A stretch of 64,000 bases of DNA from Desulfovibrionaceae bacterium. Its GTDB lineage: Bacteria; Desulfobacterota; Desulfovibrionia; Desulfovibrionales; Desulfovibrionaceae. The position numbers and the translations under genes are program-made. Below, piece after piece: positions 344 to 53,438 of this stretch. The stretch's first letter is position 1; every line of letters starts with the position of its first letter. The stretch covers positions 1-64,000 of the forward strand of contig JACCQO010000009.1 in assembly GCA_015709205.1 (NCBI GenBank). The letters are read 5' to 3'. The notes beneath the pieces were generated by a model. The model was not told where the DNA came from and made no database searches. It was given only the letters and a program-made list of their open reading frames with translations.

Positions 344-4504
<4,161 letters not shown>

Positions 4505-49695: not shown

Positions 49696-50208
49696 GTGGG
49701 AAGCGAGGAACAGGCCCTGGCGCAACTGCGGGCGCGGCTTCTGGTGGGCACGCTGCTGCTGGGTGGGCTTGCCGGGCTGGTGCGTGGCCTGTACGGCGAC
49801 GCAGGGCAGGGCCCGGCCTCGCATGCGCTGGTCGGCCTGGGCCTGGCCCTGCTGGGCGGGGCCGGGGGCGGTTTCCTCGGAGCCATGCTCCGCGCCCTGC
49901 TGGACGCCGTGCGCGGCGGGGGCGCGGCCCGCGGCGGCGTGCAGGAGGACACCATGGGCGGCACCCTGCTGGGCGCGCTGGTGGGCACGCTGGCCGGGCT
50001 GGTGGGGGCCTGCGTGCTCGGCCGCTGGGAGAGCGCGGACATCTGGGCCGCGTGCGGCGGCGGGCTGGGCGGCGCCCTGGGGGCGCTGCCCGGCGGCGCG
50101 GCCAACGTGCTGCTGCGCATGCTCGTCTACGACCGGGCCGACGCGCCCCTGCCCCCGCCGGACACGCGCCGCGACGCGGACGACGACGAGGAGATCCGGC
50201 CGCTGTAG
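49696..50208 (+). CDS. Gly/Ala-rich membrane protein of unknown function
   Basis: A 170-residue protein with about four hydrophobic, glycine-rich helices (for example LVGTLLLGGLAGLVRGL, GLALLGGAGGGFLGAM) and an acidic C-terminal tail (RRDADDDEEIRPL). Gly-zipper-like patterns suggest tight helix packing. No family recognised. The start is GTG 49696 with GAAGGGA immediately upstream. A long reverse frame overlaps it but lacks a good start and coding sense. It ends 12 bases before the AT-rich AIPR gene. Confidence 0.65.
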   Translation: MGSEEQALAQLRARLLVGTLLLGGLAGLVRGLYGDAGQGPASHALVGLGLALLGGAGGGFLGAMLRALLDAVRGGGAARGGVQEDTMGGTLLGALVGTLAGLVGACVLGRWESADIWAACGGGLGGALGALPGGAANVLLRMLVYDRADAPLPPPDTRRDADDDEEIRPL

Positions 50209-50220
50209 TGCGGCGGTCAT

Positions 50221-51954
50221 TTATAAGCCGTAGGTCTCTGGGCGGATCGAGTTGGCGAATTCTTCAGTGACAATTCTTGATCGTGCAATATTAGTTTTAT
50301 CAATGTGCGTTTTTTTTGCGGATAAATAAAATAAATGTATCCCGTCAGCACAGATTTTGAGAAAATTGTTATCATCATCGACGTATGGCAAAAATACATC
50401 AGTTACTTTTCCAGCTAACTTTCGTGAATTTAGTTTGTATTTTTCTCCATTTGTAAGCACATTCCATATATACATAAGCGTGTGGTAACGAGCAAACGAG
50501 TGTTTCTTTGATTCAGGCGTCTTTCTCAATTCGAGAATAAGTTTGTGTAAGCAATATGCTGCAAAATAGTAAGGTTCAAGTAAATGATCCTCTATGAATA
50601 TTTTACTTCTGTTCGCCTTTAGTAGCTCTCCGTAGTATCGGTGCGTACTGTGTGGCTCGCTATAAAACATCGATATGCTTGCTGAAAGTAAATTTGACAG
50701 TGAAATGATTTGTATTGGACGAACTGTGTCGTCAGTAACGTATTGTCTTGATCTTCGTTCATAATAAATGCTTCCTTTGACATCTCTATTTTTCGCTTTG
50801 CAGAATTCTTCGAATTTCCGATGGAATTCAGTTAAAGACTCAAACGCTTCAGGTTGAACTTGATTCTGTCTATTTGTAGAGCGAATAATCGAATTGATCA
50901 CTTCTTGATTTGTCGTGGAAACGATCTTAATTGGTATATGCATGTCCTTTGTTATATTTTGTTTATTTTCATATAGCACATTGCTTGTTTGGCATCCATT
51001 AACTATCTGGATGTTATCAATGATAATTTTATTCTTTGTCCTCGTAATTTTTTTGGCGACCGCGGTGATGCCATTATTTAAAAGTATAAAATAGTTTTTC
51101 TTGTTTCTGTCTGCGATTGTCGAGGAGATCTCTGCGTTTATTGGGCTCGGCCCTAGGTAATCACGAATGTTGTCGGAAAATATATTTTTATCAATGATCC
51201 CACTGTCATCACATATGAGCTTTAAAAATTCGATGCAGCTTAATCGTCCAAGAATTGCCTCTTGTACCTCTTCTACTTCAGGCAGCGCGATATAATGCTC
51301 CATTTCTATTTCTTTGTCTGTTCCGCGCGTAATTCCCCGGTATATTTTATATAATTTTTCTGCATCGATGCATTCAAGCCTTACGCTTGTGAATAATCTA
51401 GTGGATTCTAAATCAGCAGATATGGTACCCTGCACGCTGGTAGTGTTTTTATCTTGCTCGTACTTCCCTGTCGTTACATAAAAAAGTTCGCATGTTGGAT
51501 TTCCAGGATGAAATTTCCGTGCGTTCTTGAATACTAGATCCTTCATTTCGCGGAAAGTAAGTATATCTTCATTTGCTATAAGTGATGGTGATTCATTGAA
51601 AAAATCTTTCACTCCATTTCCAAACTTTAAAATATCTCCACTTTCAAATTTTTGTGATGTTTTTGCTTGTACAAAGATAAATTTAACATCTATTTTTTGA
51701 TTTAGATCAATGAAATCTTCAAGTTCTGCAATGTCATGACAAACTTTTCCATTAACAAGCATTGCAATAGCGTCAATACCTGTATCGTTTCCACTTCCTA
51801 CATGCGCTTTTTCGACATCAAATTTGTCAGTAAATCCATGGCATACAACACAGTAGCTTGCAAATAATTCAAATTGCTTGGCGATATCCCCATTCCGGTA
51901 ACCGAGGTCATTCGCGAAACCATCCAAATAGGATTTCAAAATTGTGTCGTGCAT
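50221..51954 (-). CDS. AIPR family protein with PD-(D/E)XK-like N-terminus
   Basis: A 577-residue protein of the AIPR (abortive infection phage resistance) family. The core motifs are clear: LLNNGITAVA (291-300), IDNIQIVNGCQTSN (312-325), RSTNRQNQVQPEAFESL (358-374) and YYERRSRQYV (397-406). The N-terminal part has SGNDTGIDAI with Asp61 and, after a strand, FIFVQAKTS with Gln96-x-Lys98, the spacing of an Mrr-type PD-(D/E)XK nuclease, so it may cut nucleic acid. Base composition is far lower in GC (roughly 35 percent) than the rest of the window, and codons end mostly in A/T, indicating recent transfer. The ribosome site GGGGGAG is strong. No partner gene, integrase or insertion sequence is adjacent. 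A role in phage defence is inferred from family and composition. Confidence 0.85.
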   Translation of the reverse strand: MHDTILKSYLDGFANDLGYRNGDIAKQFELFASYCVVCHGFTDKFDVEKAHVGSGNDTGIDAIAMLVNGKVCHDIAELEDFIDLNQKIDVKFIFVQAKTSQKFESGDILKFGNGVKDFFNESPSLIANEDILTFREMKDLVFKNARKFHPGNPTCELFYVTTGKYEQDKNTTSVQGTISADLESTRLFTSVRLECIDAEKLYKIYRGITRGTDKEIEMEHYIALPEVEEVQEAILGRLSCIEFLKLICDDSGIIDKNIFSDNIRDYLGPSPINAEISSTIADRNKKNYFILLNNGITAVAKKITRTKNKIIIDNIQIVNGCQTSNVLYENKQNITKDMHIPIKIVSTTNQEVINSIIRSTNRQNQVQPEAFESLTEFHRKFEEFCKAKNRDVKGSIYYERRSRQYVTDDTVRPIQIISLSNLLSASISMFYSEPHSTHRYYGELLKANRSKIFIEDHLLEPYYFAAYCLHKLILELRKTPESKKHSFARYHTLMYIWNVLTNGEKYKLNSRKLAGKVTDVFLPYVDDDNNFLKICADGIHLFYLSAKKTHIDKTNIARSRIVTEEFANSIRPETYGL

Positions 51955-52115
51955 TACTCCCCCCTTGACCGGCTTGTCAGGTTGTGGTTGGCCACGTGGT
52001 TTCTGCCTAGAGTATTAACTTGGCTATAGCGGAATTCATTTTTTAGCAAGTAAATCACTCTAGTCGATTCGAAGAGCATCTTCGCCGCATGAGATTATGC
52101 GATCCAATTTTTCGC
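51955..52115 (-). promoter_or_regulatory. AT-rich leader of the AIPR gene
   Basis: The upstream spacer of the AIPR gene stays AT-rich up to about 52115 and carries minus-strand TTGCTA and TATAGC 15 bases apart (candidate promoter around 52028-52056), plus an inverted repeat CGCAT-N6-ATGCG (52086-52101). The foreign segment therefore seems to end at the DUF4198 terminator. Confidence 0.4.
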
Positions 52116-52148
52116 AAAAAAAGCCCCCGGCTTCCGTCGGGGGCTTTT
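52116..52148 (-). terminator. Intrinsic terminator after the DUF4198 gene
   Basis: An 8-9 bp stem (52122-52130 with 52137-52145, about six-base loop). On the minus strand it runs into seven T (complement of 52116-52122). Four T on the plus side make it partly symmetric. Confidence 0.88.
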
Positions 52149-52169: not shown

Positions 52170-52943
52170 CTACTTCTTGGTCCAGGCGTCGAAGTGCACC
52201 CAGAGCACGCCGCCGAGCTCCACGGGCTTGTCCTCGCCCGCGGGGTTCTTGACCGTGAAGTCGGCCTCGTTCAGGGCCGCGAAGCCCCACCAGCCCGCCT
52301 TGGGGCAGGCCATGGAGAACACGCCGTCGGCGTCGGCCTTGACCACCTGGGTCTGGTCGTAGTCGCTGGCCAGCTTGTAGGCGTCCTTTTCCGCGTTGTA
52401 GAACTCCACCTCGATCTCCGCGTTGGGCACGGGCTTGCCGTCCAGCAGCACCTGGCCGGTGAAGGTCTGGCCCGCGAACAGGCCGAAGGGCCGCACCATG
52501 GGCACGATCTCGGTCTTCACGCCGATGGGCTCGTCCCAGCCGTCCTCGTCGCCGTAGGCCGGAACCACGACCTTGGTGTAGTGGATGATGGAGGTGTCCT
52601 CGGCGGGCTCCCAATAGGGGGTGGGCTCCATGAAGAAGGTGTACACGCCCGGCTTGGCGAATTTGTAGGGGGTCTTCCAGGCCTTCTGGCCCATGACCTT
52701 GGCTTCCTTGAGCTGGCCCAGCAGGTCCGTGGCCTTGCCTCCGACGAAGACCTTGAAGGCCTTGGGTTTCTCCAGGACCATGCCGTGCCCGGTGAAGGGA
52801 TGGCTGAAGGCCAGGGTCATCTCCAGGGTGCGCGCGTCCTGGGTGGCCTCGGGCGCGGCGGGGATGATCATGCCGTAGTGGGCCTGGGCCGGAACGGCGA
52901 GGGCCAGGACCAGGGCGGCGGCGGCGAACAGGTGGAAACGCAT
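52170..52943 (-). CDS. DUF4198 family exported protein (nickel-uptake associated type)
   Basis: A 257-residue protein with a signal peptide (residues 1-22, ending VPAQA) and a beta-sandwich mature part that starts [12 protein letters not shown]4198 proteins are periplasmic and are often coded with CbiMNQO-type nickel or cobalt uptake systems; here no transporter is adjacent. Carboxypeptidase-like Ig folds ([21 protein letters not shown]) occupy the C-terminal half. GGGAGG lies eight bases before ATG 52943; an upstream GTG-initiated frame would lack this. NikR at 21188 is a possible controller, but no binding site was found. Confidence 0.88.
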
Positions 52944-53140: not shown

Positions 53141-53182
53141 GATAAGGATAAGGGCGCAGGAAGCGTGCTTCCTGCGCCCTTA
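53141..53182 (-). terminator. Terminator of the SRP RNA gene
   Basis: A perfect 16-bp stem (53149-53164 with 53167-53182, two-base loop), directly after the SRP RNA 3' end on the minus strand, then a weak T-rich run (TATCCTTATC). Confidence 0.85.
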
Positions 53183-53183
53183 A

Positions 53184-53268
53184 GGGAGCCGGACACCCGG
53201 ATACGGCCACTACCGCTGCTCCCTTTCGGGCCTGACGGGGTTCGCGGCGTATCCGCCGCCCGGCTCCC
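53184..53268 (-). ncRNA. ffs: Signal recognition particle RNA (4.5S type)
   Basis: On the minus strand the 85-base segment starts GGGAGCCGG and ends CCGGCTCCC, which pair to close a single long hairpin. Its tip holds the universal SRP core CCCCGTCAGGCCCGAAAGGG followed by AGCAGCGGTAG, with the tetraloop-like GAAA and the asymmetric A/C-rich loop that bind Ffh. This is the small bacterial 4.5S-type RNA lacking an Alu domain. It guides membrane proteins to the translocon. The exact ends are set by the closing stem and could extend by a few bases. Confidence 0.9.
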
Positions 53269-53344
53269 TCGGCATCCGCAAACCGTGTCGATCATCGCCG
53301 CCGATGGGCAGGGAGGAGGGAGACGGTTCGGAAGGAGGGAAAAA

Positions 53345-53438
<94 letters not shown>

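Follow-up and report, generated by a model that had tools for sequence, protein, structure and literature searches.

An AIPR gene of the AbiU family in a GC-rich contig

The window analysed here is a 64,000-nucleotide stretch of a Desulfovibrionaceae genome (contig JACCQO010000009.1, positions 1 to 64,000), and the gene under study, on its minus strand, encodes a protein of the AbiU/AIPR family (Table 1). Its 577-codon frame contains no internal stop. The PADLOC AbiU model matches the protein over its full length (residues 2-570, E 1.6e-125) and the Pfam family AIPR (PF10592) matches residues 259-501 (E 5.6e-42; 144.9 bits against a cut-off of 25), in agreement with the initial annotation of this DNA, which had named an AIPR protein. 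By sequence, the protein belongs over its full length to a family already catalogued, and it is not a new system.

The same annotation had singled out the gene as the only AT-rich block, and this holds across the whole 118,903-base contig (69% GC): all 1-kb segments (step 100) below 50% GC start at positions 50001-51501, and the next-lowest segment elsewhere has 57.7% GC. The gene itself has 36.3% GC and a GC content at third codon positions (GC3) of 0.33, as against 0.895-0.962 in six flanking genes. The strong ribosome site described earlier is a Shine-Dalgarno sequence, AAGGGGGGAG, and the terminator noted beside the gene belongs to the upstream DUF4198 gene; at -25.4 kcal/mol it was equalled by none of 200 shuffles, and a simple scan had not listed it. 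No promoter was called within the leader, and comparison with the closest relative gave no conserved leader motif (best local alignment score 18, equalled in 71 of 200 shuffles). Several small inverted repeats also lie in the leader (51970-52110, minus strand; folding z -2.2, with 3 of 200 shuffles as good).

Table 1. Coordinates of the AIPR gene, its predicted domains and the neighbouring features in the window.
Feature	Position	Strand	Remarks
AIPR/AbiU1-type gene	50221..51954	minus	577 aa, ATG start, intact frame
PD-(D/E)XK nuclease domain (predicted)	51322..51951	minus	residues 2-211; E29, D61, Q96, K98
ParB/sulfiredoxin-like domain (predicted; AIPR core)	50794..51282	minus	residues 225-387
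Mostly helical C-terminal domain (predicted)	50236..50763	minus	residues 398-573; starts at conserved ERR 399-401
Shine-Dalgarno sequence AAGGGGGGAG	51957..51966	minus	ahead of the AIPR gene
Leader	51955..52115	minus	46% GC; presumed promoter site
Intrinsic terminator of the upstream DUF4198 gene	52116..52148	minus	splits the DUF4198 gene from the AIPR gene
Hydrophobic 170-aa open reading frame	49696..50208	plus	convergent; old neighbour
DUF4198 gene	52170..52943	minus	old neighbour at the other side of the insertion
Bacterial small signal recognition particle RNA	53177-53272	minus	beside tRNA-Ser, next to DUF4198
tRNA-Ser(GGA)	53345-53438	minus	same place in relative L245

Predicted architecture of the protein

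The AlphaFold model of the protein is a confident one, with a pLDDT (predicted local distance difference test) of 92.8. Its N-terminal half is predicted to be alpha/beta, with FokI and MspJI as the nearest folds in structure comparison. Conservation was read from an alignment of 113 proteins, made up of the window protein and 112 of 145 loci; the remaining 33 were short, truncated, broken, very distant or near-duplicate, or had an uncertain start. A second alignment holds 104 of these 112 loci, eight long forms being left out. In the 113 proteins the putative nuclease site is conserved at E29 (111), D61 (113), Q96 (113) and K98 (95). A well-supported prediction is thus that the N-terminus has a PD-(D/E)XK nuclease fold with an intact site, as the initial annotation had proposed from Asp61, Gln96 and Lys98, all found at those positions; the homology and structure check that it had called for returned both the PF10592 match and the predicted nuclease fold. 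In the K98 column, Glu stands in 13 of 113 proteins and Asp in 3 of 113 (Q-x-E) in place of the presumed catalytic lysine; judging from these sequences, the lysine of the Q-x-E members has perhaps migrated or been lost.

For the AIPR half, of which the initial annotation had offered no reading, the model predicts a nucleotide-binding fold of the ParB/sulfiredoxin type. All 17 best structural matches of the AIPR core belong to the ParB/sulfiredoxin nucleotide-binding superfamily, and this assignment of the predicted fold is well supported. The core carries the motifs NIRD (262-265), NNG (293-295), VNGCQTS (318-324) and NRQ (361-363), the third of which, noted earlier as an IVNGCQTS block (317-324), has a strand on one side and a helix on the other in the model. 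Twelve residues of the ParB-like domain are invariant, nine of them polar, and two conserved arginines follow just after it. The C-terminal helical domain aligns with BrxU loosely only (root-mean-square deviation 12.0). Sequence searches against solved structures gave no match at E <= 1 for the 113-protein alignment and, for the single protein, one chance-level match (E 0.13).

Cold-shock domains bind single-stranded nucleic acid in known proteins. A scan of ten long relatives (L010 and 9 of the 15 loci with at least 630 aa; the other loci of that size, L081, L109, L179, L181, L182 and L184, and the long distant relatives were outside it) found a C-terminal cold-shock domain in nine of the ten, namely L010, L044, L046, L050, L057, L069, L073, L088 and L123, which span several phyla and one viral contig. 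The window protein has no such domain. Its presence in these relatives suggests that the family is likely to bind nucleic acid, but does not distinguish DNA from RNA.

Insertion between old host genes

The AIPR gene is the only gene of the inserted block, with no partner gene beside it, and its neighbours on both sides are old host genes. Three genomes of the same family were selected because gene tables showed the two flanking genes near each other on a single contig, and in all three (G014, G002, G021) the response regulator adjoins the DUF4198 gene with no AIPR gene between them. The site is best kept on G002 contig 14, which retains the aminotransferase, the glycosyltransferase, the Tim44-like gene and a relative of the 170-aa frame; G014 contig 85 lacks the glycosyltransferase and keeps the other three together with tRNA-Ser, and of the further neighbours G021 contig 8 has the Tim44-like gene only. 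Two more genomes (G010, G015) are uninformative on the site, having none of the neighbours but DUF4198 within 7 kb. These observations support the view that the gene was inserted between old neighbours and acquired by this lineage. The empty-site check suggested in the initial annotation therefore succeeded in finding gene-free relatives; it did not yield exact borders, since the intergenic sequences of these genomes have diverged too far for base-level placement. By composition, the borders lie near 50209-50225 and 52110-52118.

AT-richness, which had been read as a sign of recent arrival, is a weaker argument, because it is a family trait: among 137 loci whose flanks exceed 3 kb, 136 have a gene GC below that of the flank, the mean gap being 13.5 points. 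Gene GC also tracks flank GC (Spearman correlation 0.78 across 77 genome loci and 0.79 across 60 viral loci). With 69.3% GC in its surroundings, a gene GC of about 0.50 would be expected; the observed 0.363 is an outlier (residual z -2.6), with lower residuals in one of the 77 genome loci and none of the 60 viral loci. Taken together, the extreme AT-richness of this copy and the gene-free sites of its relatives support import, while base composition alone says little about recency.

In line with the initial annotation, no integrase was found among the eight flanking genes scanned, and the block is not bounded by direct repeats: a 6-base word was the longest in common, and 6 is also the commonest length in 500 shuffles. 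A mobile element was rejected for want of an integrase among those eight genes and of a target duplication; the inverted repeats I4 and I5 lie within the coding sequence of old neighbours; and tRNA-Ser was rejected as attachment site because it stands beyond DUF4198, in the same place as in L245, which has no AIPR gene. In L245 the interval matching the AIPR-gene site (about 3840-4019, plus strand) holds a small histidine-rich open reading frame with HDHSHDH repeats.

The neighbour that had been called a membrane protein is indeed a hydrophobic 170-aa frame, with 12 bases between its stop codon and that of the AIPR gene. Searches of Pfam and NCBIfam up to E 1 assigned it to no family, and its counterparts in two relatives share 33.8% and 36.8% identity with it across the aligned region. 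The wider surroundings are ordinary: a class IV aminotransferase, a glycosyltransferase, a Tim44-like protein, a response regulator, DUF4198, the signal recognition particle RNA, tRNA-Ser, SAICAR synthetase and an FG-GAP protein.

Distribution of the family and search for a partner gene

Single-protein scans found no relative, and an alignment query did. The window's own genome has one PF10592 gene. In a first sample of relatives 3 of 40 genomes matched, the own genome included (0 of 23 other same-family genomes), and in the family search 25 of 289, again with the own genome; among the 24 others, 19 match only from about residue 196 on. One other genome of the 289 has a 60%-identical copy (570 residues), on a contig of a Desulfovibrio metagenome-assembled genome (L040, identical with G478 contig 22). 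Like the gene-free sites, this scarcity among same-family genomes supports acquisition by the window's lineage. The L040 copy is AT-rich too (30.9% GC against 63.6% in the flank), with an unrelated leader and, next to it, an open reading frame that looks like trmFO. Across the phylum, 26 of 395 genomes, counting the window's own, have a match to the PADLOC AbiU model at E <= 1e-20. Matching mobile records number 62 for plasmids and 7 for phages, and similar copies occur across several phyla, in chromosomes, prophages and plasmids alike; the Fels-2 copy adjoins portal gene Q, and in mycobacteriophage Thyatira one gene lies between the AIPR gene and the integrase. Copies on mobile elements, often with no close partner, are common.

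Broken copies were also seen: two on G249 contig 23 (L013, L032) and others on G090 contig 14 (L031), on G117 contig 539 (L015), at L091 and on Synechocystis plasmid NC_005232, their defects being split frames, an in-frame TGA or interruption by an IS4 element. They suggest that loss of the gene is not rare.

A recurring partner was sought among the neighbours of the AIPR genes, the genome-contig relatives being the top 80 out of 588 or more that were confirmed. A crude caller of open reading frames was run on 144 of the 145 loci (L184 was not entered) and 142 were counted, L102 and L177 having no complete gene. The commonest neighbour families occur at 6 loci each at most, and a same-strand neighbour within 60 nt was present upstream in 16 of 136 cases and downstream in 17 of 131. 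Near and distant neighbours were then compared at the 50 genome loci (out of 80) where the focal gene is complete and the sequence spans 17 kb or more; from 93 near frames, L091:7998-8432 was dropped because it is a piece of the broken AIPR copy at the same locus. No PADLOC family had more than three members among the 92 nearest or the 96 distant neighbours, and no Pfam family more than three among the former or two among the latter. Since neither set shows a family in excess, no enrichment and no operon partner are claimed. The description of the locus as a one-gene system thus stands in so far as the gene stands alone; given that AbiU is catalogued and that copies with no adjacent partner are common, calling it a new one-gene system was too strong.

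Proposed mechanism and alternative explanations

With somewhat more confidence than doubt, we propose that this is a horizontally acquired, stand-alone AbiU1/AIPR anti-phage gene whose product would be a nucleotide-licensed nuclease that stops phage infection. In such a scheme, the ParB/sulfiredoxin-like domain would bind, and perhaps hydrolyse, a nucleoside triphosphate; on meeting phage-derived nucleic acid or an infection state, the N-terminal PD-(D/E)XK domain would be released to cut DNA or RNA; and the phage cycle would end with the destruction of the phage genome or transcripts, or of the host along with them.

The most probable of the alternatives, though unlikely, is a toxic RNase or abortive effector with no nucleotide gating, in which the AIPR domain would do no more than act as a scaffold or bind nucleic acid, while the nuclease half would cut RNA or DNA once freed from an inhibitor made by the host. 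The cold-shock domains of relatives would suit RNA, a ParB fold is no proof of nucleotide binding, and the legend of a review figure groups AbiU with transcription-interfering systems (PMC9952470). However, the 12 invariant residues and two arginines look like a binding or catalytic site, and no antitoxin-like partner gene recurs.

Slightly less probable still is a single-chain type IV (modification-dependent) restriction enzyme, whose ParB-like and helical parts would read a modified base or backbone of phage DNA for the nuclease to cut. The likeness of the nuclease half to FokI and MspJI argues in its favour, MspJI being a modification-dependent enzyme. So does the structural kinship with BrxU/GmrSD and with SspE, in which, according to PMC13251355, GTP hydrolysis is coupled to cleavage. 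Against it, no modification-reading domain was identified in the protein, and AbiU is named as an abortive infection system in the title of a cited work. This reading is a sub-case of the nucleotide-licensed nuclease, with a specific trigger.

It is improbable that the gene is a decaying or neutral passenger with no defence role in this host: its GC3 is unlike the host's, but its frame and all invariant motif residues are intact and it has a good Shine-Dalgarno sequence. A HEPN RNase, as expected from a statement in PMC3506569 that AIPR proteins carry an N-terminal HEPN toxin domain, is very hard to credit, for the R-x4-6-H motif is absent from the whole protein and the predicted alpha/beta, FokI/MspJI-like N-terminus already contradicts that assignment for this member.

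Returning to the nucleotide-licensed nuclease, AbiU is represented by a model in a defence database, its relatives occur in bacteria, plasmids and phages, and our literature searches turned up no mechanism for it. What is new here is the anatomy; the family itself was already known. A nuclease joined to a putative nucleotide switch turns AbiU into a testable hypothesis with named residues, for which this small, complete copy with no adjacent partner gene is a convenient test case. If true of AbiU1/AIPR proteins as a whole, it would provide the first mechanism, as far as those searches show, for a family known in defence since its description in 2001, and would correct the published HEPN assignment of that family.

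Comparison with known systems

With AbiU1 of the Lactococcus abortive infection system (PADLOC PDLC02357) the protein has a full-length profile match in common. PADLOC presumably calls AbiU from a single gene, and our own analysis shows the match to the protein model only. An AIPR protein from a Lactococcus cremoris plasmid, not shown to be AbiU1, has 589 aa against 577 here and is 22% identical. As a passage in PMC3985639 has it, lactococcal AbiU consists of two genes, abiU1 and abiU2, whereas no abiU2 was found among the genes adjoining the window gene (the search covered these, not the rest of the genome). The window protein is a member of the AbiU1/AIPR family, yet not of the two-gene lactococcal system.

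Other likenesses are partial. MzaE of the MZA systems gives a local match to the AIPR core (E 6.6e-08), and the PF10592 match takes in the greater part of the ParB-like core and a portion of the helical domain, leaving the nuclease half uncovered. The motif order of DndB (PF14072) is similar by eye, but DndB has no nuclease half, and its profile does not match the window family significantly (hhalign E 0.17, probability 0.4%); a DndB-AIPR link is already stated in PMC3506569.

A further parallel is with SspE, GmrSD and BrxU, where a single chain likewise carries a ParB/sulfiredoxin-like domain and then a helical one, with a nuclease fused to it. Their nuclease is HNH, whereas that of the window protein is a predicted PD-(D/E)XK domain at the N-terminus, and a Pfam scan up to E 1 gave AIPR only, with no HNH domain. 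The signature DGQ(Q/H)R is named for SspE in a passage of PMC13251355 and for GmrS/DndB in one of PMC4619093; no DGQ occurs anywhere in the window protein, where VNGCQTS is present and may be its counterpart. With both DGQ(Q/H)R and HNH absent, the protein is not an SspE/GmrSD member and would at most work like one. In this regard, SspE joins a ParB-like domain to a C-terminal HNH domain, and here the N-terminal PD-(D/E)XK domain would do that work. We give about even chances to the wider proposal that all AbiU1/AIPR proteins are single-chain, nucleotide-licensed nucleases in which a ParB/sulfiredoxin nucleoside triphosphate switch would drive an N-terminal PD-(D/E)XK domain, in mirror image of SspE/GmrSD, with the cold-shock domain as nucleic-acid sensor in some of them. 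The predicted anatomy would thereby tie AbiU to SspE/GmrSD-type defence, where a nucleotide licenses a nuclease.
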